A stretch of DNA of 64,000 nucleotides from Opitutaceae bacterium. Lineage in GTDB: Bacteria; Verrucomicrobiota; Verrucomicrobiia; Opitutales; Opitutaceae. Below are positions 43,113-55,318 of the stretch, piece by piece; the first letter of the stretch is position 1, and the number at the start of each line of letters is the position of its first letter. The stretch lies in the NCBI GenBank assembly GCA_028280945.1, contig JANQKV010000058.1, positions 1-64,000 of the forward strand, given 5' to 3'. The position numbers were made by a program, and so were the translations under genes. The notes under the pieces were generated by a model, which saw only the letters and a program-made list of their open reading frames with translations, searched no databases and was not told the DNA's origin.

Positions 43113-44262
43113 TCCCGAAGCGTTGCGATCGCGGTTGCACACCTTGGGGTTCGATGTCGTGCGCTTTGCTCCGATCGGTGAATTCACTCCAGGATCAAAA
43201 GCGTTCGCCGACTGGCTCGAACTGGGTTACCAAGGCGAGATGGCTTGGCTCGAGCGTTCGTTGCCCAAGCGCTCCGATCCCGATTTGGTGCTGAAGGGTG
43301 CCCAAAGCATGATCGTGTTGGGGGTGAACTATGGGGACACCCCGGCCCGCTCCGGTCGCCCGACTTGGGCACGATACTCGTTGTATCGAGATTACCACGA
43401 CACCATCAAGCCGGGTTTGGTGGCGGCGGGACGGGAGCTTGAGCAGTGGGGTGGTCTTTCCGACCGGGACTATCGCTACTATGTCGACACGGGGCCGGTG
43501 TTGGAGCGCTCCTGGTCCGCCCAGGCGGGCGTTGGGTTTACCGGCAAGAATGCCATGCTGATTTCCCGTGATTTCGGAAACTGGCTTTTTCTCGCGGCTA
43601 TCCTGGTCCGTACTGATTTACCCGCCAATGCGGCCGTGAGTCGTCGTTATCAGGATCAGCCGGTCGGAACCCTGTGTGGTGGTTGCACGGCTTGCCTCGA
43701 GGCGTGCCCGACGGGAGCGTTGCCGGCCCCGGGCGTTTTGGATGCACGCCGCTGCATCTCATACCTCACCATTGAGTTGAAGGGGGTGATTCCTGTTGAG
43801 TGGCGCCAGGCGATTGGAGACCGCATCTACGGCTGTGATGTGTGCGCCGAGGTGTGCCCGTGGAACCGTTTTGCCCAGGTGTCCCGATCAGTTCTGCTGG
43901 CTCCCAGGCCCGAGATTGCCGAATTGACTCTCCGGGACATTCTCGAACTCACCCCTGAACGGTTTGCCGAGGTCTTCAAAGGAACCGCGATCAAGCGTCT
44001 CAAGTTGCGGGGGCTATTGCGGAATGCGTGTATTGTTGCAGCGAATATCGACGCCCAAGACTGCATCCCGGCGATTCACCGCTTGGCCGGGAACCATTCC
44101 GAGGCGATGGTTCGTGCTCATGCCGTCTGGGCATTGCGCGTTTTTGGTCTCGAAACGGCGGAACTCGTGCACTTGGCCGAGCAGGAGGAAGATGAGGTGG
44201 TCTTGGCGGAATACCGCCGGGAAGAACTCAATCCGGGAACACCTCCGCGATCAACTTCTTGA
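43102..44262 (+). CDS. queG: Epoxyqueuosine reductase
   Basis: Last step of queuosine tRNA modification: cobalamin-dependent reduction of the epoxide. 386 residues with the DUF1730-type N-terminal domain (HTLGFDVVRFAPIG), two 4Fe-4S motifs CGGCTACLEACPTGA and CDVCAEVCPWN, and a C-terminal helical repeat (AMVRAHAVWALRVFG). Its 3' end overlaps the convergent thioesterase gene by 35 nt. Confidence 0.95.
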   Translation: MRPDPEALRSRLHTLGFDVVRFAPIGEFTPGSKAFADWLELGYQGEMAWLERSLPKRSDPDLVLKGAQSMIVLGVNYGDTPARSGRPTWARYSLYRDYHDTIKPGLVAAGRELEQWGGLSDRDYRYYVDTGPVLERSWSAQAGVGFTGKNAMLISRDFGNWLFLAAILVRTDLPANAAVSRRYQDQPVGTLCGGCTACLEACPTGALPAPGVLDARRCISYLTIELKGVIPVEWRQAIGDRIYGCDVCAEVCPWNRFAQVSRSVLLAPRPEIAELTLRDILELTPERFAEVFKGTAIKRLKLRGLLRNACIVAANIDAQDCIPAIHRLAGNHSEAMVRAHAVWALRVFGLETAELVHLAEQEEDEVVLAEYRREELNPGTPPRSTS

Positions 44263-44629
44263 AGACTTCGGGCGGGCGGGTGGGCCGGCCGGAGTGGTCC
44301 ACGAATACGTGCTCAGTGCTGGCTTCCGCGATCAAGTCCGACCCCCTGGTGAGCACGTAGTCCAAACGGAAGCGAAAAGTAGGTTTCTGCTTCAACCGCA
44401 CCTCAACGGTAATTTCGTCGTCGTAGTGCGCAGGCTGCTTGAACTGAAGGTTAAGGCCCAGCAACGGGAGCCGATAGCCCATTTCCTCCAGCTCCCGGTA
44501 AGTGAGCCCGGACTGGCGAAAAAGATCGGTGCGAGCCACCTCGAGCCAGGGCACGTAATCGCCATGGTAGACGATGCCCATCATGTCGGTTTCCGCATAA
44601 CGGACGCGGATGGTGGATTGCGACTTCAT
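44228..44629 (-). CDS. Acyl-CoA thioesterase, YbgC/FcbC (4HBT) family
   Basis: Hotdog-fold thioesterase of 133 residues from ATG 44629. Active-site block RVRYAETDMMGIVYHGDYVPWLEVAR has the catalytic Asp and conserved Tyr-His. The family hydrolyses short to long acyl-CoA or aromatic acyl-CoA. It sits 33 nt from the glycosyltransferase gene on the same strand and near the lipid locus, so it might feed that pathway, but YbgC-type genes are common everywhere. Confidence 0.88.
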   Translation of the reverse strand: MKSQSTIRVRYAETDMMGIVYHGDYVPWLEVARTDLFRQSGLTYRELEEMGYRLPLLGLNLQFKQPAHYDDEITVEVRLKQKPTFRFRLDYVLTRGSDLIAEASTEHVFVDHSGRPTRPPEVFKKLIAEVFPD

Positions 44630-44662
44630 CACGCGGAGACAGAAGCCCACCGCGCTCAGGCG

Positions 44663-45802
44663 TCAACTTGCGGGCTCACCAAACAGTTTTAAGGCGGAGT
44701 CTCGCCACGTGTGTTTGCGCGACCAAACACGGCCCTTTTCCCCGAGTTCATGACGCAATGCAGGAGTCGTGATAAGCTTGGTGAGGGCGCGAGTGAGGGC
44801 GTCGGCATCGTGGGGAGGAACCAGGATCCCAGTTTGACCACTGATTACAGCTTCGGAAACTCCGCCGACCGCATGGGCCACGATTGGCAGTCCGTGAGCC
44901 GATGCTTCCAAATAAACCAATCCGAACCCTTCAACGCTTTTACCGTAGTCGATGCTTGTCATCGCAAACACGTCCGCTTCGTCGTAAATTTTTGTCAGTT
45001 GGTCGTCGGATACTCCGCCGAAGAATCGGACGGTGAAATCGCACCACTCGGCGGCGGTTTTGAGTTCTTTTTCATAGGCCGGTCGAGCTGTCGTGCCGAC
45101 GATCCAATACTCGATGTTCTCACGGACCGGCGCGGGGAGCCGGTGCAGGGCACGCAGGGTTTCTAGCTGGCCCTTACGTGGGTGAAGGCGCGCGACGGTC
45201 AGGATTCGCACCTTTGGTGCGCTCGAGCGAGCGCGTCGCTGTGGCATTTCAAAACCGGCTCGAAGCGCACCTGGGGTTTTCAGCAACTTGGATTCGGTTT
45301 CCGGAAATAGATTGGTCAGAAGCCCTCCAGTATATTCGGTGAGCACGCTGATCTTCTTCGCGTAGTTCATCAGTCGCTTCGCCATGGGGCGAATCCAAGG
45401 ATTGTGATAAAACTTGAGGATTTCCGAGCCGTGGAAGGTAAGAAACAGATTGCGCGGGCGAAATGCATGAAACCGCTGCAAAAGCATGAGTGTGAGCATG
45501 GGGCCGGGCTCAGGCAGGAACACGGTGGCGCGTCGCAGGTCGCGTCGGCGTTTGATCAGCTGGACGGCCAGTCTCAGCTGACAAGTCAGGTCGTGCGTGC
45601 CTTTCAGGGGCAGTCGCCAAACGCGAAAAGGCCATTTTTTGTCATCCTTCTCTGTGGCATGTTGAGCCCACACTTCCACATCCCAACCCAACTGCTTCGC
45701 CGCCAGCGCCATTTCCTCCGTAAATGTGGCGATACCACCCCGTTTGGGGTAGAACTCGTGGGTAACAACGAAGACTTTGGAGGATTGAGACTTATCCTGC
45801 AT
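44663..45802 (-). CDS. Glycosyltransferase family 4
   Basis: GT-B fold sugar transferase of 379 residues. N-terminal Rossmann half begins VFVVTHEFYPKRGGIATF with the Gly-rich acceptor loop; the C-terminal half has ILTVARLHPRKGQLETL (donor loop, Arg-Lys) and the EGFGLVYLEASAHGLPIVA motif with the EX7E-type residues. Donor and acceptor unknown. It is divergent from the ACP-dehydratase gene across 234 nt and may belong to the adjacent lipid or glycan locus. Confidence 0.9.
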   Translation of the reverse strand: MQDKSQSSKVFVVTHEFYPKRGGIATFTEEMALAAKQLGWDVEVWAQHATEKDDKKWPFRVWRLPLKGTHDLTCQLRLAVQLIKRRRDLRRATVFLPEPGPMLTLMLLQRFHAFRPRNLFLTFHGSEILKFYHNPWIRPMAKRLMNYAKKISVLTEYTGGLLTNLFPETESKLLKTPGALRAGFEMPQRRARSSAPKVRILTVARLHPRKGQLETLRALHRLPAPVRENIEYWIVGTTARPAYEKELKTAAEWCDFTVRFFGGVSDDQLTKIYDEADVFAMTSIDYGKSVEGFGLVYLEASAHGLPIVAHAVGGVSEAVISGQTGILVPPHDADALTRALTKLITTPALRHELGEKGRVWSRKHTWRDSALKLFGEPAS

Positions 45803-46036: not shown

Positions 46037-46999
46037 ATGCCAAAAGCCGACACCAAGGCTCAAAAGGAATCCAAATCTGCTGGTTCAGCGCCCAAGCCGC
46101 TCTCGGTTGAAGAGGAATCCACTCTTCGCGAATCCCTCAAACGATGCTCTCCCGCCACAATTGAGGCGGCCATCGCCTACCGTAAAACCGAGGAAGCCAG
46201 CCACCTTCCGGCGGTGATCATTGGTGTCATTGAACGTTTCGTGGAGCCTGATCTGCGGGCTAAGCTGAAGGAAGCGGACGACGAACTCCGGCTCGTGGAG
46301 GACTTGGGTATCGATTCGCTGACGATGATGGAAATCGTGATCCTCGTCGAAGACGTGCTCCAGATGCAGATCAACAACGAAGATTTGCGTAATCTCCGTA
46401 CAGTGGGTGACATCAAGGTCTTCATTGACTGCAAGGTGCGAGGCCTTCCGCCGCCCCAGCCGACCAAATTCCTCCCGATCGAACAGATTGTTTCGGTCAT
46501 GCCCATTCAGGCACCGTTTCTCTTCCTCAACGAGGCATCGATCACTGGCAGCGGAGCCCAAGGCAAATACAAGATAACGGGGCAGGAGTTCTTTCTGCAG
46601 GGGCATTTCAAGGACAACCCGGTCATGCCTGCCTCGCTCATGCTCGAAGCATTGGGTCAACTTGCCGTGCTCTACCTTTTGGAGGGAGCGCCCCCAGAAG
46701 AGGGAAAAGTCGTCGACCAGACCAAGATTTTCTTCACCTCGTGTGAGGGCGTCCGTTGCCATCGTATCTGCCGTCCGGGTGACCTGCTTTCGCTGTCGAT
46801 CAAGCCGAAGCGCACGAAAATGCCGCTGGCGACTTTCGAGGGATCTATTCGAGTGGGTCAGGATAAGGCCGCCATGGCTGAAGAGATCACGCTCACATTT
46901 GCCTATTCTGATGCGAAGACCAGCGACGCCGAGGTTGCGGCGCTCGATGCAGTGGAAGGCGATACCCGTCCCCCGACCATTACCGCGGCGACTGCCTGA
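46037..46999 (+). CDS. Acyl carrier protein - FabZ-like 3-hydroxyacyl-ACP dehydratase fusion
   Basis: A 320-residue fusion. N-terminal ~50 residues are Lys/Ser/Ala-rich, then an ACP domain (about 55-135) with the phosphopantetheine Ser94 in EDLGIDSLTMME, then a hotdog dehydratase (about 145-300) in which His190 in QGHFKDNPVMPASLMLEA and Glu204 keep the FabZ active-site spacing of 14 residues. The chain would be dehydrated while attached to its own carrier. It opens the lipid locus; the beta-ketoacyl synthase gene follows after 172 nt. Fused ACP-dehydratase proteins are unusual compared with separate FabZ and AcpP. Confidence 0.88.
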   Translation: MPKADTKAQKESKSAGSAPKPLSVEEESTLRESLKRCSPATIEAAIAYRKTEEASHLPAVIIGVIERFVEPDLRAKLKEADDELRLVEDLGIDSLTMMEIVILVEDVLQMQINNEDLRNLRTVGDIKVFIDCKVRGLPPPQPTKFLPIEQIVSVMPIQAPFLFLNEASITGSGAQGKYKITGQEFFLQGHFKDNPVMPASLMLEALGQLAVLYLLEGAPPEEGKVVDQTKIFFTSCEGVRCHRICRPGDLLSLSIKPKRTKMPLATFEGSIRVGQDKAAMAEEITLTFAYSDAKTSDAEVAALDAVEGDTRPPTITAATA

Positions 47000-47171
47000 C
47001 CAACCTCGGTTCCTAGAAAAGGGTCCAGCGGAGGTTTTGGAGTCTTTCCGCTCATGACGATCGTTGACGACAGCGATGCGGATAACATGGTAGGGAAAAA
47101 TTCCCAACTTGCGCCCCTGTCGGCACCTAACCATTCACTCTGGGCTCGGCGGCGGCCTGACCCGATCAGTT

Positions 47172-48443
47172 ATGGCTAAAGTTTATGTAACCGGACTCGG
47201 TTTCATCACCAGCATCGGTAATGACATTACCAGCGTAGCTGAGAATCTGCGTGAGATGCGGCATGGGATTGTCGCTTACGAGCCGTTCGCCGCTTCGGAG
47301 ATACCCGTAAAGGTGGCTGCGCCGGTGAGAGACTTCGACACGGATTCGCTGGATCCAGAGGACTGGACTTACCCGAATCGATACCGGGTGCGGCGCGAGT
47401 ATCTTCGCAGCATGGGTCCTCATGGACTCTACAGTTTTTGCTCGATGATTCAGGCCATCGAAGACGCTGGTTTGGCCCCAGAAGACGTTTCCGATGAGGA
47501 GACCGGGCTATTTGGAGCCTCCGCGGGGTCTCCCAACCTGCTAACTTATTACGTGCGCCGGATGCACGATCTTGGCGTGATGAGATGTTCGCCCCTTGGG
47601 ATTGTCGCATCGATAGCGGGCACGGTGCAGTTCAACCTAGTAGCCCACTTCAAAATCAAGGGAGCTTCCACCGGGTTTGCGTCGGCCTGTGCTTCCTCAT
47701 CTCATGCGTTGGGATACGCCTATGATGAAATCGCGCTGGGGCGGCAAAAACGGATGTTTGTGGTGGGAGCCGAGGACGGAAATGTAGAGACGATTTTGCC
47801 TTTTGCCGGGATGCGTGCGCTCTCGCCCAGCGACGACCCCGACACGGCTTCACGGCCATTTGACCGTGGGCGGGACGGGTTCGTCGGAACCGGTGGCGCT
47901 ACGACCTTGGTTTTGGAGAGCGAAGAGGAAGTCGCTCGCAGGGGAGTTGTTCCCTACTGCGAATTAGCGGGATGGGGACAGGCTTCTGATGGTCATAATG
48001 TCGCCATCTCGCACCCTGACGGACATGGCTTGGCGAACGCATTGTCGCGGGCCATTCAAAGTTCCAGCATTGAGCCGAGCGCAGTAGACTACATCAATGC
48101 CCACGCGACTTCCACGCCGATTGGTGACGTGTCGGAAGGCAAGGCGATCCGAACGGTATTTTCTCCTTCGGGCTCAAAGCCGGCTATAAGCTCTACCAAG
48201 GCCTTAACGGGACATGGTTTGTCCTTGGCCGGCGCCATGGAGACCGGCTTCTGTGCCCTGGCGCTGCGCCAGGGTTTTATCCCGGGATCAGCCCATGTCA
48301 CAGACCTTGATCCCGCAGTGGTTGATTTGAACATCCTGCTCGAAACCGAAGAGCGACGTCCTCAAATAGTCATTAATAACAGTAGTGGATTTGGGGGGGC
48401 CAATGTTGCCTTGGTGATGCGTGCGGTGCCCTCCGTGGGATGA
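47172..48443 (+). CDS. Beta-ketoacyl-ACP synthase (KAS II-like)
   Basis: Condensing enzyme of 423 residues from ATG 47172 (MAKVYVTGLGFITSIG); codons upstream to 47109 are not conserved. Active-site Cys173 in STGFASACASSSHALG, His311 in NAHATSTPIGD and His348 in STKALTGHGLSLAG make a complete Cys-His-His triad, so it can condense, unlike chain-length-factor types. Start of a tightly packed plus-strand run: its stop overlaps the next gene by 4 nt. Sits apart from the usual fab genes, so a specialised acyl chain is likely (inference). Confidence 0.9.
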   Translation: MAKVYVTGLGFITSIGNDITSVAENLREMRHGIVAYEPFAASEIPVKVAAPVRDFDTDSLDPEDWTYPNRYRVRREYLRSMGPHGLYSFCSMIQAIEDAGLAPEDVSDEETGLFGASAGSPNLLTYYVRRMHDLGVMRCSPLGIVASIAGTVQFNLVAHFKIKGASTGFASACASSSHALGYAYDEIALGRQKRMFVVGAEDGNVETILPFAGMRALSPSDDPDTASRPFDRGRDGFVGTGGATTLVLESEEEVARRGVVPYCELAGWGQASDGHNVAISHPDGHGLANALSRAIQSSSIEPSAVDYINAHATSTPIGDVSEGKAIRTVFSPSGSKPAISSTKALTGHGLSLAGAMETGFCALALRQGFIPGSAHVTDLDPAVVDLNILLETEERRPQIVINNSSGFGGANVALVMRAVPSVG

Positions 48444-49285
48444 GCGAAAAAACCACATCCGTTCGGAATCGAAGTGCGTTTATTACGGGTGCGTCAGCCG
48501 GTATCGGCAAAGCCCTGGCCCTGGCTCTTTTGCGCGATGGATGGCAGGTTTGGGGCACCTCTCGGGATCTTCAGCGGTTGGACTCATTTTCGAGTGAAAG
48601 GGGATTTCACCCGGTGGAGTTTGATTTGGCGGAGCCTTCGCGGGCTTCCCACGATGAGTTTAAGAGCGCTGACGAAACTGCTGGTGGATTTCAGCTTGTG
48701 GTGAACAACGCAGGCTTCGGCCATTTCGGAATGTTTGCTGAAACGAAATGGCCCGAGTGGCAGACACAACTGCAGGCCATGATCTCACAAACGACCGCCC
48801 TTATCCACGAACAGGTCAGACTCATGCGGCAACGCGAGGGTGGGACCATCGTAAACGTGTCCTCGCTTGCGACAGAGTTTCCCCTTCCGTTCATGAGTGG
48901 ATACAATATGTCCAAGGCGGCAATCAGCGCGCTGAGCGAGTCGCTTGTGCAAGAACTGCGAGGCACAGGCATTTGTGTCATTGATTTTCGTCCTGGAGAT
49001 GTTCGGACAGGTTTTAACAAAGCGATGTCGGCAGATGCTCGAGATGCGATCAACGCCCAACCTGACTCTGATTTGGCGGCTGCGTGGCGAAAAATGGAAA
49101 CTCACGTGGCGGCGGCTCCCTCCGCCGAGCAGGTTGTGGCGGCTCTATTGCGCGCCGTGAAGAAAGGCCGCCCGGGAGTTGTGCGATCGGGAGGTTTTTT
49201 TCAGGCGACTTTGGCTCCATCCCTTATTCGGCTGGCCCCGCAGTATCTCGCGCGTCACATCCGTTGGCGCTATTTTGGCATTTGA
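48440..49285 (+). CDS. SDR family reductase of the lipid locus
   Basis: A 281-residue short-chain dehydrogenase. Cofactor loop FITGASAGIGKALALALL, catalytic Ser in NVSSLATEF, YxxxK in SGYNMSKAAIS. The C-terminal ~50 residues are extended (RLAPQYLARHIRWRYFGI), as in reductases acting on long chains or membranes, such as 3-ketosphinganine reductases. It follows the ketosynthase gene with an ATGA overlap and could reduce the ketone of an acyl-ACP or of the alpha-oxoamine product. Confidence 0.85.
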   Translation: MSEKTTSVRNRSAFITGASAGIGKALALALLRDGWQVWGTSRDLQRLDSFSSERGFHPVEFDLAEPSRASHDEFKSADETAGGFQLVVNNAGFGHFGMFAETKWPEWQTQLQAMISQTTALIHEQVRLMRQREGGTIVNVSSLATEFPLPFMSGYNMSKAAISALSESLVQELRGTGICVIDFRPGDVRTGFNKAMSADARDAINAQPDSDLAAAWRKMETHVAAAPSAEQVVAALLRAVKKGRPGVVRSGGFFQATLAPSLIRLAPQYLARHIRWRYFGI

Positions 49286-49292
49286 CTGACTC

Positions 49293-50567
49293 GTGGAGAA
49301 AAAGCTTCGCATTCTCGTTTTAACTTCCAGCACCGGGGGAGGGCATGACGCCCGTGCTCAAGCCTTCGCGCAATGGTGTTTTGTGCTCTACCAACATGGC
49401 GTGGACGTGCGGATCGAGCAGATGCTGGAAAACTCATCGGTGGTGAACCGCTCCGGGGTTAAGCTCTATAATTGGATCCAGCTTAATCTGCCCGTCCTCC
49501 ACAACGCCTTCTACGCTGCTGTGGAGTTGTTGAGTTTGCTCAATCGCAATCGAGTGACGCTCGGCAACCGCTATTATCGCGAAGTGCTGGAGGAGTATCG
49601 CCCCCATTTGGTGCTGAGTGTCCACGACTGTCTGAATCGAGGGTATTTCCAGGTGGCTCGGGAAGTGCTTGGTGAAGACCAGGTAAAGTGTGCGACCTAT
49701 TGTGGGGAGTTTTCCGGAGGCTGGGGATATAGCCGCAATTGGCTGGAACCCTCCGTGGACCTTTTCATCTCCCGCACGCCGACAGCACGTGACTATGCGG
49801 TCAAAAATGGGGTGCCGGCGGATCACACGCTCGTGCGCGGCCACCTCATGCGACCGCGGGCCATGTTGGAGAAATTATCCGAAAAGGGGAGGGTGCGTTA
49901 TCTTTGGCGGGAACTGCGGCTGAAACCGGATCGGTTTACGGTTTTCCTCGCGACCGGTGGCAATGGCGCCAACAACCACTTTGCGCTCTTGCCAGCCTTG
50001 GCGCGTCACGCTGACAAACTCCAAGTCATCGCGATTTGTGGCAGGAACAACGATACCTACAACCAACTGCTGCACTGGCGCGCCAACCACCCGGAAATGC
50101 CTTTCTTTGTCGATGGTTATTCGGATGTCATGCACCTGCTCATGCAGGTCAGTGATGTGATCATCACTCGTGGAGGCACTACCACCTGTGCCAAGGCCCT
50201 GCACTTTGGCTGCCCGATCGTGTTCAATGCCTTTGGGGGAATCATGCCGCAGGAAAAGCTCACGTGGAAGTTTTTCCGCAATGGCGCGAGGTCCCTGAAG
50301 GTCGAAAGTGGGGATGATTTTGGTCGAATCATCGATGATTGGATGCACGCTCCCCAAGCGTATCAGCGTTACCGGGACGACTTTGTGCGCATGCAGTATC
50401 CTGATGATCAGACTCTACTGATCGATGATCTGGTCAACTTGGCGAGACGGGTAACCGATCTGCCGGTGAAGCGTTTTCCCTTCCCACCGGAAGGGCATCT
50501 TGAGGATGAAGCGGGAGCAGAGGCTTCGGATTCATCTCGCCGGGGTGACGCGGCCGCGGCCAAGTAA
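49293..50567 (+). CDS. MGDG-synthase-like glycosyltransferase (GT28 group)
   Basis: GT-B glycosyltransferase, 424 residues from GTG 49293, 7 nt after the SDR. N-terminal MGDG-synthase-type domain (LVLTSSTGGGHDARAQAFAQW with the Gly-rich acceptor loop) and C-terminal GT28 half (VIITRGGTTTCAKALHFGCP, then PQEKLTWKFF with a Gln-Glu donor-site motif). Family members add galactose or glucose to diacylglycerol, acting at the inner membrane. In this locus the acceptor may be the product of the acyl and oxoamine enzymes (inference). Confidence 0.88.
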   Translation: MEKKLRILVLTSSTGGGHDARAQAFAQWCFVLYQHGVDVRIEQMLENSSVVNRSGVKLYNWIQLNLPVLHNAFYAAVELLSLLNRNRVTLGNRYYREVLEEYRPHLVLSVHDCLNRGYFQVAREVLGEDQVKCATYCGEFSGGWGYSRNWLEPSVDLFISRTPTARDYAVKNGVPADHTLVRGHLMRPRAMLEKLSEKGRVRYLWRELRLKPDRFTVFLATGGNGANNHFALLPALARHADKLQVIAICGRNNDTYNQLLHWRANHPEMPFFVDGYSDVMHLLMQVSDVIITRGGTTTCAKALHFGCPIVFNAFGGIMPQEKLTWKFFRNGARSLKVESGDDFGRIIDDWMHAPQAYQRYRDDFVRMQYPDDQTLLIDDLVNLARRVTDLPVKRFPFPPEGHLEDEAGAEASDSSRRGDAAAAK

Positions 50568-50610
50568 GCTCTTGGCCGGGAGGACGAACTCCCGCAACGT
50601 AACCCCCCCA

Positions 50611-51822
50611 GTGTCGCGTCAATCCCTTCGCATCGCCTACCTGTTTACCACCTTCCCGAAGTCGACCGAAACCTTTCTCCAGCGGGAGGTTCGTTCGATG
50701 TTGGCGCGCGGATATGATCTGCGTTTGTATTCACTTTTTGGAGGCGGGGGCACTTTTGCCGGTGTCACCGTGACCAGGTTTTCCATGTGGAGGCTGCTGG
50801 AACTCATCTGGATCATCCCTTGGGTGGCGGTCTCCCGCTGGGATGTCTTTGGAGTGCTGTGGCATGGGCTGTGGACACGGCGGGCACCGGGTTGGCTGAA
50901 TTTTTGGGAGAACATGCTGGGGGCGGGTTTCGCCGGGGTGTTTGCCCCGGCCTTTCGACGTGACCCGCCCGACCTGATTCACGCTGCTTGGGGCGGTGCG
51001 CCGGCGACAGCGGCTTGGATTCTCTCAAGGCTGGGTGGATATCGCTACAGTGCGGCAGCCCATGCTTACGACATCTATGAACACGGAGGAGATTGGTGGC
51101 TGGATGAAAAATTGGTCGATGCCAGATTTGTGCACACGTCCACCCGAATGGGACGGAATTCCTTGGTGGAACGAGGCCACAATCCGGATCGGGTTCATGT
51201 CGTTTGCCGAGGAATCGATGTCTTCCGGGCTTGCCGTGCGTTGCGGGCGGACCGATCCACCCTCCATTTGATCTGCATCGCCAGGCTGGTGGAAAAAAAG
51301 GGCCTGTTTCATCAACTTGAAATCTATCGGCAGCTTGTGAGTCGAAACGTTCCGTTCGAAGCGCGCATCATTGGCGACGGCCCTCTGCGTGATGCGCTGG
51401 TAAACCAGATCGGTCAATTCGACTTGCAGGACCGGGTTTACCTCTTGGGGCACCTTGCGGAGGAGGATGTTTGGGAGCAACTGGATTGGGCGGACGCGCT
51501 CCTGCACACCGGAATCGTCGCGGCCAGTGGCGATCGGGATGGACTTCCAAACGTGATACCCGAGGCCATGATGGCAGGCGTGTTGGTGATGACCTCGCCT
51601 GCGGCTGCCACGACGGAGGCCATTGACCACGACCGCACGGGCTGGGTCCTGCCGGTCGAGGAGTCAGGTCAGTGGTGCGATCGGCTGGCCGCGTTACGCG
51701 AGCAGAACCCGCGATGGGACGAGGTTCGCATTGCGGCCCGGCAATGGACCGAAGAAAACTATGACGGGCTGCGGAACGCCGACCGCTTGGCTGAGCTTTT
51801 TGAGTCGGCGGTATCGTCATGA
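50611..51822 (+). CDS. Glycosyltransferase family 4
   Basis: GT-B protein of 403 residues from GTG 50611 (SLRIAYLFTTFPKSTETFLQREV, a typical GT4 start); upstream ATGs at 50500 and 50506 lie inside the previous gene. C-terminal half with CIARLVEKKGLFHQLE and DGLPNVIPEAMMAGVLVM (donor-binding EX7E-type region). The FPKxSETF start is common in colanic acid-type transferases. Its stop overlaps the next start by 4 nt. Confidence 0.85.
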   Translation: MSRQSLRIAYLFTTFPKSTETFLQREVRSMLARGYDLRLYSLFGGGGTFAGVTVTRFSMWRLLELIWIIPWVAVSRWDVFGVLWHGLWTRRAPGWLNFWENMLGAGFAGVFAPAFRRDPPDLIHAAWGGAPATAAWILSRLGGYRYSAAAHAYDIYEHGGDWWLDEKLVDARFVHTSTRMGRNSLVERGHNPDRVHVVCRGIDVFRACRALRADRSTLHLICIARLVEKKGLFHQLEIYRQLVSRNVPFEARIIGDGPLRDALVNQIGQFDLQDRVYLLGHLAEEDVWEQLDWADALLHTGIVAASGDRDGLPNVIPEAMMAGVLVMTSPAAATTEAIDHDRTGWVLPVEESGQWCDRLAALREQNPRWDEVRIAARQWTEENYDGLRNADRLAELFESAVSS

Positions 51823-52838
51823 TCTACTTTGACGTTACGAAATCGGCCAAGTCTCGACACGTTTCGGGACTGATGCGGGTGAATCGCAAGCTTCAGCAAG
51901 AGCTGGGGGGCGACATCGTGCCCGTGGTTTGGGGCCAATGGGATCATCACGCGGTTAAGCCGGACGATTGGTATTTCACAACAGAGATCTTTGATGTGGT
52001 TAGTCGGCCGGGATTTGCCGATTTCCTGCGGTCGCGCACCTGTCAATTGGCGGCTCTCTTTCCAGATGCGATTCCGCTGAAGTTTCCTCGCATTGTTTGG
52101 CCTCATTCGGTTGCGCGGCATCCCCACTACATGCATGCGCTATCGCGATTCGACCACGTGTTTGCGATCTCTGAGGCCGTGCGCCGGGACTTGGAAGAGT
52201 TTTGGCGATGGCAGGGGAATGAAACATCAACGGAGGTGAGCGTATTGCCGTTGGGAGCCGACTTCGATGGCAGCCCTCGGCGTCCACAAGTTACCGGGAC
52301 CCGCGCTGCCGAACTGGTCTGTATAGGAATTCTTGAGCCACGGAAGAACCAGGCGTTTTTGATGAAGGTCGCAGAAAGCCTTTGGGCGGATGGCGTGGAG
52401 TTTAAGCTGCACCTGATTGGTCGAGTGAATCCTCATTTTGGGCGCTCCATTGCCGACCACGCCCAGTTGTTGTCGAGCCGTCACCGCGATCGATTTCAGT
52501 ATCATGCGGCTGCCACTGACGTTCGTTTGGCTGATTTGCTCGGTCGGGCGCGAGCAGTGGTGTTTCCGACCATTGCGGAGGGGTGCGGTCTGCCAGTTTT
52601 GGAGTCGTTGTGGCGGGGACTCCCGTGCGTTTGTTCCGATTTGCCGGTGTTGTTGGAGAATACCGACGGAGGTGGGTGTGTGCCTCTGCCGGTCAACGAT
52701 ATCGAGGAATGGAAAAAGGGACTGAAACGTCTTCTCGAAGACGACGCGTGGTGGCTTGCCCTGGCCCAAGAAGCTGCGGCGCGCTCGCTGCCGACTTGGG
52801 CTGACTCGGCGAACCAGGTACGCCGGACTCTTTGCTGA
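51819..52838 (+). CDS. Glycosyltransferase family 4, short paralogue A
   Basis: A 339-residue transferase. N-terminus IYFDVTKSAKSRHVSGLMRVN; donor half ILEPRKNQAFLMKVAE and TIAEGCGLPVLESLWRGLPCVCS. It shares start and end patterns with the protein at 54113, so they look like paralogues of the WbdA-type mannosyltransferase group. Last gene of the plus-strand run that began with the ketosynthase. Confidence 0.85.
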   Translation: MIYFDVTKSAKSRHVSGLMRVNRKLQQELGGDIVPVVWGQWDHHAVKPDDWYFTTEIFDVVSRPGFADFLRSRTCQLAALFPDAIPLKFPRIVWPHSVARHPHYMHALSRFDHVFAISEAVRRDLEEFWRWQGNETSTEVSVLPLGADFDGSPRRPQVTGTRAAELVCIGILEPRKNQAFLMKVAESLWADGVEFKLHLIGRVNPHFGRSIADHAQLLSSRHRDRFQYHAAATDVRLADLLGRARAVVFPTIAEGCGLPVLESLWRGLPCVCSDLPVLLENTDGGGCVPLPVNDIEEWKKGLKRLLEDDAWWLALAQEAAARSLPTWADSANQVRRTLC

Positions 52839-52856
52839 AAATCGACTGTGGCGAAG

Positions 52857-54053
52857 TTAGAGCTTTTTGACCGCGTAGGTCATGGCCTCGCCGATTTGAT
52901 CGATCTGGTCCTCCGTGTGAAGGGCCGAAACCGCCGTGCGAATGAGGTCTTTGCCCGGGGGCACGGCCGGAGCAATGGACATTACCGTGAACACGCCTTT
53001 TTCCAGCAGCGCCTGCCAGAAACGATAGACCGCCTCCCGTGAACCCAAAACAATCGGAACCGCCGGAGTTTCACTCTCCCAGATATCCAGTCCCAACGAT
53101 TTCAGAATATTGGTGTAGCGCTTGGTGTTGCGCCATAGACGCTCATGGTGCTCGGGTTCTTCCTGCATCACGTCCAGAGCGGCTGAAGCGACCGCAGCTT
53201 GAGAGGGAGGCACTGCTGCAGAGAAAATGGTCTGTTTGGAATTGGTGCGAAGATACTCAATGATCTCACGGGAGGCAGCGATGAATCCACCAGTGCTGGC
53301 CAATGACTTCGACATGCTGCCACAAATGATATCCACTTGGTCATTCAAGCCAAAGTGATCGACCGTGCCACGTCCTTGGCGGCCAAGAACGCCGAAGCCG
53401 TGGGCATCATCCACCACGCTGAAACAGCCGAACTCTTCGCCGATCCCAATGATCTCAGGCATGCGAGCGATATGACCCTCCATCGAATAAACCCCTTCGA
53501 TCACGAGCATCTTGCCGCGGCGGGAATCGACCGTTTCGACAATGTCGCGAAGATCGGATGGGTTGTTGTGAGAGAATCTTTCGACCGTGGCCATCGAGAG
53601 ACGAACACCGTCCCACAGGCACGAGTGAATATTCTTGTCCGCCAGGATCACGTCTCCCTTTTGCGCGAAGGCCGCCACGCTGGTCAGGCAGGATAAATAG
53701 CCCGCGGCGTGGATGTGGCATGCTTCGCGGCCGAGAAAGTCGGCCAGTTTTTGCTCAAGGTCCGTGTGATAGAGACGGGATCCGTTCGAGGGGCGCGCCC
53801 CGGTCGGACTCGTGCCCCATTGCGACATGGCTTTCTGCCCGGTTTCAATGACCTTGGGGTGAAAAGAAAGGCCCAGGTAATCATTGCTGGAGAGCATGAT
53901 CATGTCGCGGCCGTCGAGGCGGATGGAGGTGCCTTTTTGGGCCTCCATCGCATGGTAGTAGGGTGCGTATTTGAGACGCATCTTCGTCGCGTAGTCGTCG
54001 CGCGAACGTTGCAAAATCGCCTTGGGGCTTCGCTTGAAGAAAGTCAGTGCCAT
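52857..54053 (-). CDS. Alpha-oxoamine synthase (serine palmitoyltransferase/BioF/KBL-like)
   Basis: PLP enzyme (398 aa) joining an amino acid to an acyl thioester with loss of CO2. Key residues: His143 stacked on PLP (DKNIHSCLWDG), Asp215 and His218 in VVDDAHGFGVLG, PLP-Lys249 in GSMSKSLASTGG. A basic N-terminal extension (LTFFKRSPKAILQRSRDD) precedes the catalytic fold. It could be BioF, KBL, SPT or a CqsA-like synthase; the lack of other bio or tdh genes and the neighbouring ACP, ketosynthase and glycolipid genes favour a sphingolipid- or aminolipid-type synthase. It is convergent to the ketosynthase run. Confidence 0.85.
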   Translation of the reverse strand: MALTFFKRSPKAILQRSRDDYATKMRLKYAPYYHAMEAQKGTSIRLDGRDMIMLSSNDYLGLSFHPKVIETGQKAMSQWGTSPTGARPSNGSRLYHTDLEQKLADFLGREACHIHAAGYLSCLTSVAAFAQKGDVILADKNIHSCLWDGVRLSMATVERFSHNNPSDLRDIVETVDSRRGKMLVIEGVYSMEGHIARMPEIIGIGEEFGCFSVVDDAHGFGVLGRQGRGTVDHFGLNDQVDIICGSMSKSLASTGGFIAASREIIEYLRTNSKQTIFSAAVPPSQAAVASAALDVMQEEPEHHERLWRNTKRYTNILKSLGLDIWESETPAVPIVLGSREAVYRFWQALLEKGVFTVMSIAPAVPPGKDLIRTAVSALHTEDQIDQIGEAMTYAVKKL

Positions 54054-54112: not shown

Positions 54113-55318
54113 TCAGCGGCCAGGTGGCAGCGTTTGGATCCAATCCAGCAATAAATCGGCGCAATCGCTCCACAAAGGGGACGGTCGTGCGGCTGCCTCA
54201 CGGGCCAAGGATTCGCGTTTGGACGTATTGTGCATCAGCTCCCGGATCGCTTTGGCAACCGGCTCACGGTGCCGTGTGTCGATTGCCAAACAGCCTCCTC
54301 CTCGGGCGGTTTCGCCGGTCGCTCCGTGAGCGGAGCAAATGCAGGGTTTGCCGTGTAGGAGACTCTCCCACACGGGGAACCCAAATCCCTCCAACAACGA
54401 GGGATAGACAGTGAAGGCGCACTCCTCGAACGCCTGTTCAAGGCCCTGATCTGAGATCCAGCCATCGTAACGTAGCGGGCGACCCTTTGTTTGAAGGCCT
54501 CGTATTCGTTCCATGGCTGTTTGTCCGGTTTCACGCTGAAACATGCCGATCAAACGCAACTCGAATCTCTCGCCCGCTTCCCACAACAACTCGCAGGCCT
54601 CGAGGAGGGTGACGTGGTTTTTACGTCCTTCGATCGAGCCTACGCACAATATTGTGGGAGGTGTGGATTTTTTTCCCTCATTGATGTGGTTGGGGTTTGT
54701 CTGGTGGTGCGTAGCGGGCAAGTGATCCATTCCCGGGGGAAGCACCACAACTTCGGGGTGGTTGCTCCATCCCGCCCAGTCCCAATAGCCGAGCAGTGAT
54801 GCCTTCGAATCCTCTGAAAGGGCGCAGATTCCGTCGAAATCGTGGAGTTCGGCCATATACACGGGAAAGCGGCTGACCGCGCCGGGCGGGGTCAAATCGG
54901 GCAGTCGCAGTGAGATGGCGTCATGGAACAAAGCCACCTTGGGGCAGCGCAAACCAGCAAAGAGCCCAAGTAGATTTCGTCCTGTCCGCTGGGTGAAGAT
55001 TTCCGGAGTGAAAAACGCTTCGGCGTCGGATGGGATGTTGTATTGGGTGGCCGGACCAGATGTCAGTCGACGCAGCCTGCCGCGGATCTGAGCCGACAGC
55101 GGCCAATATGCTCCACGGCGTTTGGCCGGAGCGGGAGGGCATTCGAGGGTCGCACTTTCCCAAGCCTCCAAAAAGCGCCAGCTACGTTGGTGAGGGTCAT
55201 GGGTGATTTCCCGTAATTTTGTTTTTTCGCCCAGCGCTTTGCGCAGCTCCAACGCCACCCTTTGCACACCGGTGCGAGCTCGGCTGTGGCTGGTATGCGA
55301 CAGGTCGTAGAGCAACAT
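54113..55318 (-). CDS. Glycosyltransferase family 4, short paralogue B
   Basis: A 401-residue GT-B protein similar to that at 51819: N-terminus LLYDLSHTSHSRARTGVQRV, donor half GSIEGRKNHVTLLEACELL and SLLEGFGFPVWESLLHGKPCIC. Sits 59 nt upstream of the oxoamine synthase gene in its transcription direction and 5 nt from a GT2 gene, so it probably forms a minus-strand unit GT2-GT4-AOS in the order GT2 first. Confidence 0.85.
   Translation of the reverse strand: MLLYDLSHTSHSRARTGVQRVALELRKALGEKTKLREITHDPHQRSWRFLEAWESATLECPPAPAKRRGAYWPLSAQIRGRLRRLTSGPATQYNIPSDAEAFFTPEIFTQRTGRNLLGLFAGLRCPKVALFHDAISLRLPDLTPPGAVSRFPVYMAELHDFDGICALSEDSKASLLGYWDWAGWSNHPEVVVLPPGMDHLPATHHQTNPNHINEGKKSTPPTILCVGSIEGRKNHVTLLEACELLWEAGERFELRLIGMFQRETGQTAMERIRGLQTKGRPLRYDGWISDQGLEQAFEECAFTVYPSLLEGFGFPVWESLLHGKPCICSAHGATGETARGGGCLAIDTRHREPVAKAIRELMHNTSKRESLAREAAARPSPLWSDCADLLLDWIQTLPPGR

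Follow-up and report, generated by a model that had tools for sequence, protein, structure and literature searches.

Several bacterial serine palmitoyltransferases (SPTs) are known to work with dedicated partners. SPTs fed by specialised acyl carrier proteins (ACPs) are one precedent (PMC9386255), and in Pseudomonas fluorescens MYb115 an SPT fed by a polyketide synthase (PKS) yields C24-C28 sphinganines, through a system, SgaABC, that combines chain building by ketosynthase (KS) and ACP, an SPT and a KDSR-like short-chain dehydrogenase/reductase (SDR), the PKS being of type I and the head group phosphoglycerol (PMC12134224). In sulfonolipid synthesis, the cysteate acyl-ACP transferase SulA, which carries a lysine at position 281, prefers acyl-ACP (PMC9304779). 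Here, we analysed a locus at positions 46037-54053 of a 64,000-nucleotide stretch of an Opitutaceae bacterium (GenBank assembly GCA_028280945.1, contig JANQKV010000058.1; hereafter the window), where an alpha-oxoamine synthase (AOS) lies next to an ACP-dehydratase fusion (ACP-DH), a KS, an SDR and several glycosyltransferases (GTs), and which rather likely encodes a sphingolipid-type glycolipid pathway.

For the phylum, a study of the Black Sea has found 22 Verrucomicrobiota genomes that encode Spt-like proteins, and notes that bCerS and CerR neighbours are missing in Cloacimonadota; the available part of it does not describe the gene set of our locus (PMC11334938). The polar lipids given for a Coraliomargarita species comprise three unidentified ones and no listed sphingolipid in the part of PMC11165907 consulted, and the corresponding part of PMC7203096 has nothing on Opitutae lipids under 'sphingolipid'. 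We found no report of measured sphingolipid synthesis in the clade in the open literature, a search that may miss a report in a subscription journal.

Results

An alpha-oxoamine synthase of the SPT clade

The AOS branched inside the SPT clade, apart from KBL, BioF and ALAS, with supports of 100/99 (tree 1) and 99/94 (tree 2), in two midpoint-rooted trees with few references (11 and 17 rows from outside Opitutales), the second of which omitted the Bradyrhizobium BioF, the R. etli ALAS and six Opitutales rows. It emerged as sister to an AOS from a Rubrobacter plasmid (95/92 and 97/98), to which it is 44% identical (39% to the Sphingobacterium SPT) and whose neighbours, a GNAT protein and an epimerase-type reductase, read as the bCerS and CerR pattern.

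Among the residues compared (N57, H143, D215, H218, K249, A279 and R372), the AOS keeps the pyridoxal phosphate (PLP) lysine, the stacking histidine, the aspartate, a second histidine and the carboxylate-binding asparagine and arginine, all of them common to other AOS enzymes too. Ala279 was found in 15/15 locus-type AOS and in 5/5 SPT rows (three bearing that name in their records, two so labelled from gene neighbours), versus Asn or Thr in 6/6 rows of KBL, BioF or ALAS. It stands at the position of Lys281 in SulA, a mapping that rests on the text of PMC9304779 with no SulA sequence aligned. Just one further AOS turned up in the genome, a KBL (658 bits, cut-off 460) beside tdh (548 bits, cut-off 380). 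Judged by its sequence, the AOS is SPT-like, and not a BioF or a KBL.

Co-occurrence of the synthase, the acyl carrier and a glycosyltransferase

Co-occurrence was followed in 240 genomes of the phylum and in 87 genomes of the order, with profiles built from 18 of 31 AOS-cluster open reading frames (ORFs; profile A1), 15 of 31 ACP/DH ORFs (A3) and 19 of 27 ORFs of one glycosyltransferase, GT4a (A4). In the phylum sample the AOS scores split cleanly, with 26 genomes at 583 bits or more and the next at 400. ACP or ACP-DH was detected in 30/240 genomes at E 1e-25, and GT4a reached at least 373 bits in 27/240, 26 of them the AOS genomes, the next match being at 276 bits. All 26 AOS genomes carry both the locus ACP and GT4a, G055 by way of an unfused ACP (ACP half) only. 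Fisher tests of the link of AOS with ACP and with GT4a gave p values of 6e-31 and 6e-34, uncorrected for kinship and inflated by shared ancestry, and six of the 26 AOS genomes had contributed rows to the AOS profile. More telling than these values are two genomes outside the order, G093 and G156, which supplied no profile rows and have all three genes (in G093 at three separate places), and the contrast between two genomes of one genus, G163 and G212, where the first has none of the three genes and the second has them all.

The order sample comprised 43 genomes with both AOS and ACP, one with AOS only, 10 with ACP only and 33 with neither; the sole AOS genome without ACP (G017) is 50% complete. 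The ACP count here rests on 39 matches over ACP and DH together (six with a stop codon inside the matched stretch), 11 strong matches to the DH half and three unfused ACP genes (G055, G057, G072), and G063, with only AOS fragments at contig ends, was scored as lacking AOS.

Organisation and conservation of the locus

The genes are listed in Table 1. KS and SDR, as well as GT4a and GT4b, overlap by 4 bases, and SDR and GT28 are 7 bases apart. For KS and GT4a the listed ORFs begin too early: the likely starts are an ATG at 47172, leaving about 172 bases after ACP-DH, and a GTG at about 50599, so that GT28 and GT4a are separated by a gap of about 31 bases instead of overlapping. A preliminary description of the window had named seven genes between 46037 and 54053, packed tightly from KS to the GT4 genes. 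All seven are present at these positions, with the Pfam domains expected and intact catalytic motifs where checked, and the packing holds except between GT28 and GT4a. The same description had proposed placing the AOS in a tree and looking for the genes together in relatives, and would have given up its reading had the AOS grouped with BioF or KBL or had co-occurrence been absent; as reported above, the AOS groups with SPTs, the KBL/Tdh pair lies elsewhere in the genome, and the genes co-occur in both samples.

Table 1. Genes of the locus and possible additional members, with positions in the window.
Feature	Coordinates	Strand	Basis and remarks
ACP + FabA/FabZ-like dehydratase fusion (ACP-DH), 320 aa	46037..46999	+	Proposed dedicated acyl carrier; Pfam FabA-like and PP-binding
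FabF-like beta-ketoacyl synthase (KS)	47172..48443	+	Pfam ketoacyl-synt N and C; ORF listed from 47109
Classical SDR, candidate 3-ketosphinganine or 3-ketoacyl reductase	48440..49285	+	Pfam adh_short
GT28, MGDG-synthase/diglucosyl-DAG-synthase-like glycosyltransferase	49293..50567	+	Pfam Glyco_tran_28_C, NCBIfam, PDB 4wyi
GT4a glycosyltransferase, tracking AOS	50599..51822	+	Pfam GT4-type domains; ORF listed from 50500
GT4b glycosyltransferase	51819..52838	+	Pfam GT4-type domains; clusters with GT4c
SPT-like alpha-oxoamine synthase (AOS), 398 aa	52857..54053	-	Pfam Aminotran_1_2; two trees; catalytic residues
GT4c glycosyltransferase, GT4b family	54113..55318	-	Pfam, clustering; 69/80 Opitutaceae AOS loci (best 80)
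GT4d glycosyltransferase, divergent neighbour of the ACP gene (possible part)	44663..45802	-	Pfam; 21/80 loci (best 80)
4HBT thioesterase-like protein (possible part)	44228..44650	-	Pfam; 20/80 loci (best 80)

Past GT4c come, by Pfam, a GT2, a protein matching no family and a GT2-GT4 protein, and further out two genes reading as RmlA and RmlB (from the sequence, no family search) and an RmlD-type protein.

Among the best 80 of 561 confirmed AOS relatives, the closest named matches are Opitutaceae (best 93%), and the titles read Opitutaceae, Opitutae, Opitutia, Opitutales, Opitutus, Lacunisphaera, Candidatus Didemnitutus and unclassified Verrucomicrobia(ota). In these 80 loci, many of which end at contig edges, tblastn retrieved GT4c in 69, GT4b in 56, GT4a in 53, KS and GT28 in 32 each, ACP-DH in 27 and SDR in 25. 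The order GT4d< ACP-DH> KS> SDR> GT28> GT4a> GT4b> <AOS <GT4c recurs in Opitutaceae, so the arrangement is not due to chance, and loci that have these genes depart from it only rarely, as L127 does by having a gene of GT4c type ahead of the AOS. Across a wider set of 43 sequences (the window, 39 stretches from relatives and three from its own genome), KS, SDR and GT28 are missing in some families, and the AOS lies elsewhere in others.

Three genomes (L056, L062, L064) have the AOS adjoining genes that read, with no family search, as BamA, Skp and LpxD, that is, genes of outer-membrane assembly and lipid A. A class III aminotransferase adjoins the locus in L049, L050, L054 and L200 (46% between L050 and L200), accompanied in the first three by a protein of 268 aa, for which Pfam gave no match in the L050 copy.

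Chain-building and reductase genes

The ACP serine (S94) and the dehydratase residues H190 and E204 of ACP-DH are invariant in 15/15 aligned sequences, the Cys-His-His of the KS is kept in 18/18 locus-type KS, and the catalytic Tyr and Lys of the SDR in 8/8 and its Ser in 7/8. Against the KdsR model the SDR of the window scored 104 bits (cut-off 400), which made this model the eighth best, with seven other SDR models higher and FabG-type models at 98-100. KdsR was the best model for three of the six locus SDRs scanned (L067, L200, L203), none of them near 400, and was not among the 25 models shown for three SDRs beside PKS-linked AOS.

Elsewhere in the same genome (L075, contig C37, 52000-70000), a second ACP, sharing about 50% identity with that of the locus, lies beside a methyltransferase, and about 6 kb from it a KS-like protein keeps the Cys and lacks both catalytic histidines.

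Glycosyltransferases

The predicted model of GT4a has a GT-B fold (mean pLDDT 93), and its neighbours in a fold search are ordinary GT4 enzymes (BshA, HepE, PimB', WaaG), uninformative on the acceptor. GT28 matches PDB 4wyi (E 1.3e-13), falls far under its curated NCBIfam cut-off (71 of 500 bits) and is carried by 14 of the 43 sequences read. GT4d is also found beside the ACP gene outside the order, in L203. The best GT4a match below the orthologues, the one at 276 bits, belongs to G136, where another AOS adjoins it and a bCerS-like gene lies at a distance of about 5 kb. At this place (L222) the GT4a-like gene is divergent from, and adjacent to, the SPT-like AOS, and may belong to a glycoceramide cluster of other members of the phylum.

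Ceramide enzymes

A bCerS profile (A2) made of three bCerS-type proteins, with YghO as the E. coli member, chosen from the locus order in PMC9386255, gave no match in the genome of the window. It works in this family, as indicated by its hits in G050 and G080 (317-319 bits); with G076 (166) and a weak match in G057 (43), these make up the four bCerS genomes among the 87 of the order. A single Rubrobacter bCerS-like query likewise gave nothing in this genome at E 1, the profile being the stronger test. For CerR, a profile of four proteins was run on 10 genomes, and no match of CerR level was found in the genome of the window, where the best reached 144 bits. Two records scored 458 and 495, but their own proteins had supplied rows to this profile, which makes them a positive control by construction. 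CerR as the reductase of the locus was rejected: among the 10 genomes searched, G132 alone gave a sufficiently strong match.

In G050 and G080, bCerS lies beside a protein of 1349-1366 aa with KS, ACP, PKS-dehydratase and AOS domains (Pfam). Proteins of 1319-1366 aa occur in L208, L209, L219 and L220 (from G080, G050, G163 and G212; the first two were scanned with Pfam), each with a bCerS-type GNAT beside it and an SDR nearby, and in L209 with a PAP2 protein; they represent a fused PKS-sphingolipid system that is separate from the locus. The AOS part of the G050 and G080 proteins groups with an AOS next to a Pseudomonas PKS, in another clade than the locus AOS. We therefore rejected such fusions as a fused form of the locus; they offer an analogy and no direct evidence.

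Discussion

Proposed pathway and alternatives

The gene content, the intact motifs and the SPT-clade placement are read from the sequence, as are the tight co-occurrence of ACP, AOS and GT4a and the absence of bCerS and of a CerR-level match. The reactions and their order, the choice of amino acid, what each glycosyltransferase acts on and whether or not the amine is N-acylated are inferred. In the pathway we propose, the dedicated dehydratase-fused ACP would carry the acyl chain, which KS and SDR, where present, would extend or finish. The SPT-like AOS would then join this acyl-ACP to an amino acid, serine being the likeliest, and release CO2 to give a 3-keto long-chain base, whose ketone would be reduced, possibly by the locus SDR. 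GT4a would add the first sugar, and GT4b, GT4c or GT28 may add more or act on related lipids. The preliminary description had drawn a similar route of chain making, condensation, reduction and glycosylation. This reading is borne out in part: the AOS is SPT-like, the genes co-occur in relatives, and glycosylation of the AOS product is plausible since GT4a is present in 26/26 AOS genomes. The roles it gave to SDR and GT28 stay conjectural: the SDR goes unmatched in some loci, and GT28 is carried by a minority of the sequences.

Several observations weigh against this pathway. The AOS misses the NCBIfam SPT cut-offs (380/640, 348/500 and 266/670 bits), as do the Rubrobacter AOS (best 444/640) and that of L212 (575/640), and is therefore called here an SPT-like subfamily and not a confirmed SPT. 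At thirteen positions that are invariant in the 15 locus-type AOS, every one of the 11 references has another residue; some of these positions are near the active site, so the substrate could differ. A recheck of three of them outside the order found C122 and S246 in both G093 and G156, and S144 only in G156. PKS-linked AOS have Val at the Ala279 position (5/5), and Ala279 is no proof of serine. Being convergent to the ACP/KS/SDR/GT operon, on the minus strand, the AOS lies outside that operon and is not co-transcribed with it. Nor is KdsR a distinctive match for the SDR, being outscored by FabG-type models in L038 and unlisted for L050. Moreover, tblastn gave no SDR match in 7/32 KS-bearing Opitutaceae loci (best 80), nor was an SDR seen in the same-genus locus L210, so the SDR is dispensable and cannot be the only possible reductase. 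KS and SDR lie away from the ACP in several families of the wider set. ACP occurs without AOS in 10 of the 53 ACP genomes of the order (one of them 61% complete), and ACP and KS occur without AOS in four of the 30 ACP genomes of the phylum sample (G020, G039, G054, G021), among which G021 has ACP-DH, KS, GT28 and GT4a together and no AOS of the locus clade; the ACP-KS part thus also has another use. Finally, we found no lipid data for the pathway.

A serious contender is an ordinary glycosylated ceramide, in which an unrecognised enzyme non-homologous to bCerS would N-acylate the amine, leaving a standard pathway with replaced parts. Spt-like genes without nearby bCerS and CerR are common, and others have suggested non-homologous replacement (PMC11334938); the locus AOS also groups with AOS that have CerS/CerR-like neighbours. 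On the other hand, the recurrent families with an inspected representative within five ORFs of the AOS (284 ORFs in 30 loci, with 91 singletons unannotated and the rest of the genome unscreened) include no N-acyltransferase but LpxD, in three loci, and the close relatives G050 and G080 have their bCerS beside a different, PKS-fused AOS. An ordinary ceramide is compatible with the pathway proposed here and differs from it only in N-acylation, so our confidence in the one overlaps with that in the other. Only tentatively do we suggest a ceramide-free, dissociated (type II) form of that pathway, where ACP-dehydratase, KS and a reductase would build the chain, the condensation would be SPT-like, and a GT4 would put sugar directly on a never-N-acylated amine lipid of the Opitutales outer membrane.

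Alternatively, the locus might hold two unrelated pathways, with ACP-DH, KS, SDR and GT28 supplying a glycerolipid or lipid A with an acyl chain that is modified or very long, and the AOS using ordinary acyl thioesters. Rhizobial AcpXL genes provide a very-long-chain acyl for lipid A, AcpXL being accompanied by a dedicated FabZ, FabF and the acyltransferase LpxXL. The four genomes with ACP and KS and no AOS, G021 above all, would fit such a split, as would the opposite strand of the AOS and its distance from the ACP in several genomes. The dependence, however, runs one way, with 0/26 AOS genomes of the phylum sample lacking ACP, unlinked cases included, and G163 is devoid of all three genes; we regard two pathways as unlikely. 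Equally improbable in our view is that the AOS takes alanine, glycine or a larger amino acid in place of serine, so that the product would be a novel or deoxy base, or else an amino ketone outside the sphingolipids. The substitutions near the active site, such as C122 and S246, and the SPT cut-offs missed would agree with this, whereas the locus AOS matches SPT in Ala279 and in the residues that bind PLP and the carboxylate, without this proving serine; cysteate in particular is disfavoured, since SulA has Lys at the Ala279 position. That the AOS could be a BioF or KBL, to which it is tied by a common superfamily and by 330 bits to the BioF model (cut-off 426), can be rejected as highly improbable given its placement with SPT in the trees and the true KBL beside tdh in the same genome.

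Significance

What can be put to the test is the claim that sphingolipid-type glycolipids are made by members of Opitutales that do without the ceramide enzymes known from bacteria. Were it to hold, measured sphingolipid synthesis would be added to the clade, a dissociated chain-building set would join the acyl-ACP synthetase and the type I PKS as a further mode of feeding an SPT, and a candidate glycosyltransferase would be at hand.

Comparison with known systems

GT28 matches both MGDG synthase and diglucosyl-DAG synthase, far below the curated cut-off. SulA and the locus AOS belong to the same AOS family, and acyl-ACP use by the latter is hypothetical; they differ in that Lys281 of SulA is Ala in the locus AOS (PMC9304779). 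With the Spt-bCerS-CerR systems of Rubrobacter (L163) and Aureispira (L164), as read from neighbouring genes, the locus shares an SPT-like AOS, Rubrobacter providing the nearest outgroup, and it departs from them in that its genome has no bCerS, the best CerR match being the one at 144 bits. The rhodobacterial AcpR/AasR/SPT system likewise has a specialised ACP serving an SPT (PMC9386255, PMC11324152), but the locus lacks bCerS and a CerR-level match, and its ACP is dehydratase-fused and next to a KS.

SgaABC, whose PKS builds chains specifically for an SPT and which also has a KDSR-like SDR, very long sphinganines and an added head group (PMC12134224), is the described system that tempers the preliminary description's statement that no pathway with such a gene set was known, as it already couples a chain-building KS/ACP, an SPT and a KDSR-like SDR. 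A Pseudomonas plasmid typed as mobilizable (L225, NZ_CP016850.1) carries a type I PKS, an AOS, an LTA-synthase-family protein and an SDR, and resembles the Sga genes for phosphoglycerol-sphingolipid. Its PKS-cluster AOS, taken as a proxy for SgaB, whose own sequence was not compared, falls in a separate clade from the locus AOS (100/100). SgaA is a type I PKS and the Sga head group is phosphoglycerol (PMC12134224), whereas the locus has a discrete KS and ACP-DH with no type I PKS beside the AOS. Chain-fed SPTs being already known, what would be new is a dissociated chain-building SPT locus with glycosyltransferases.

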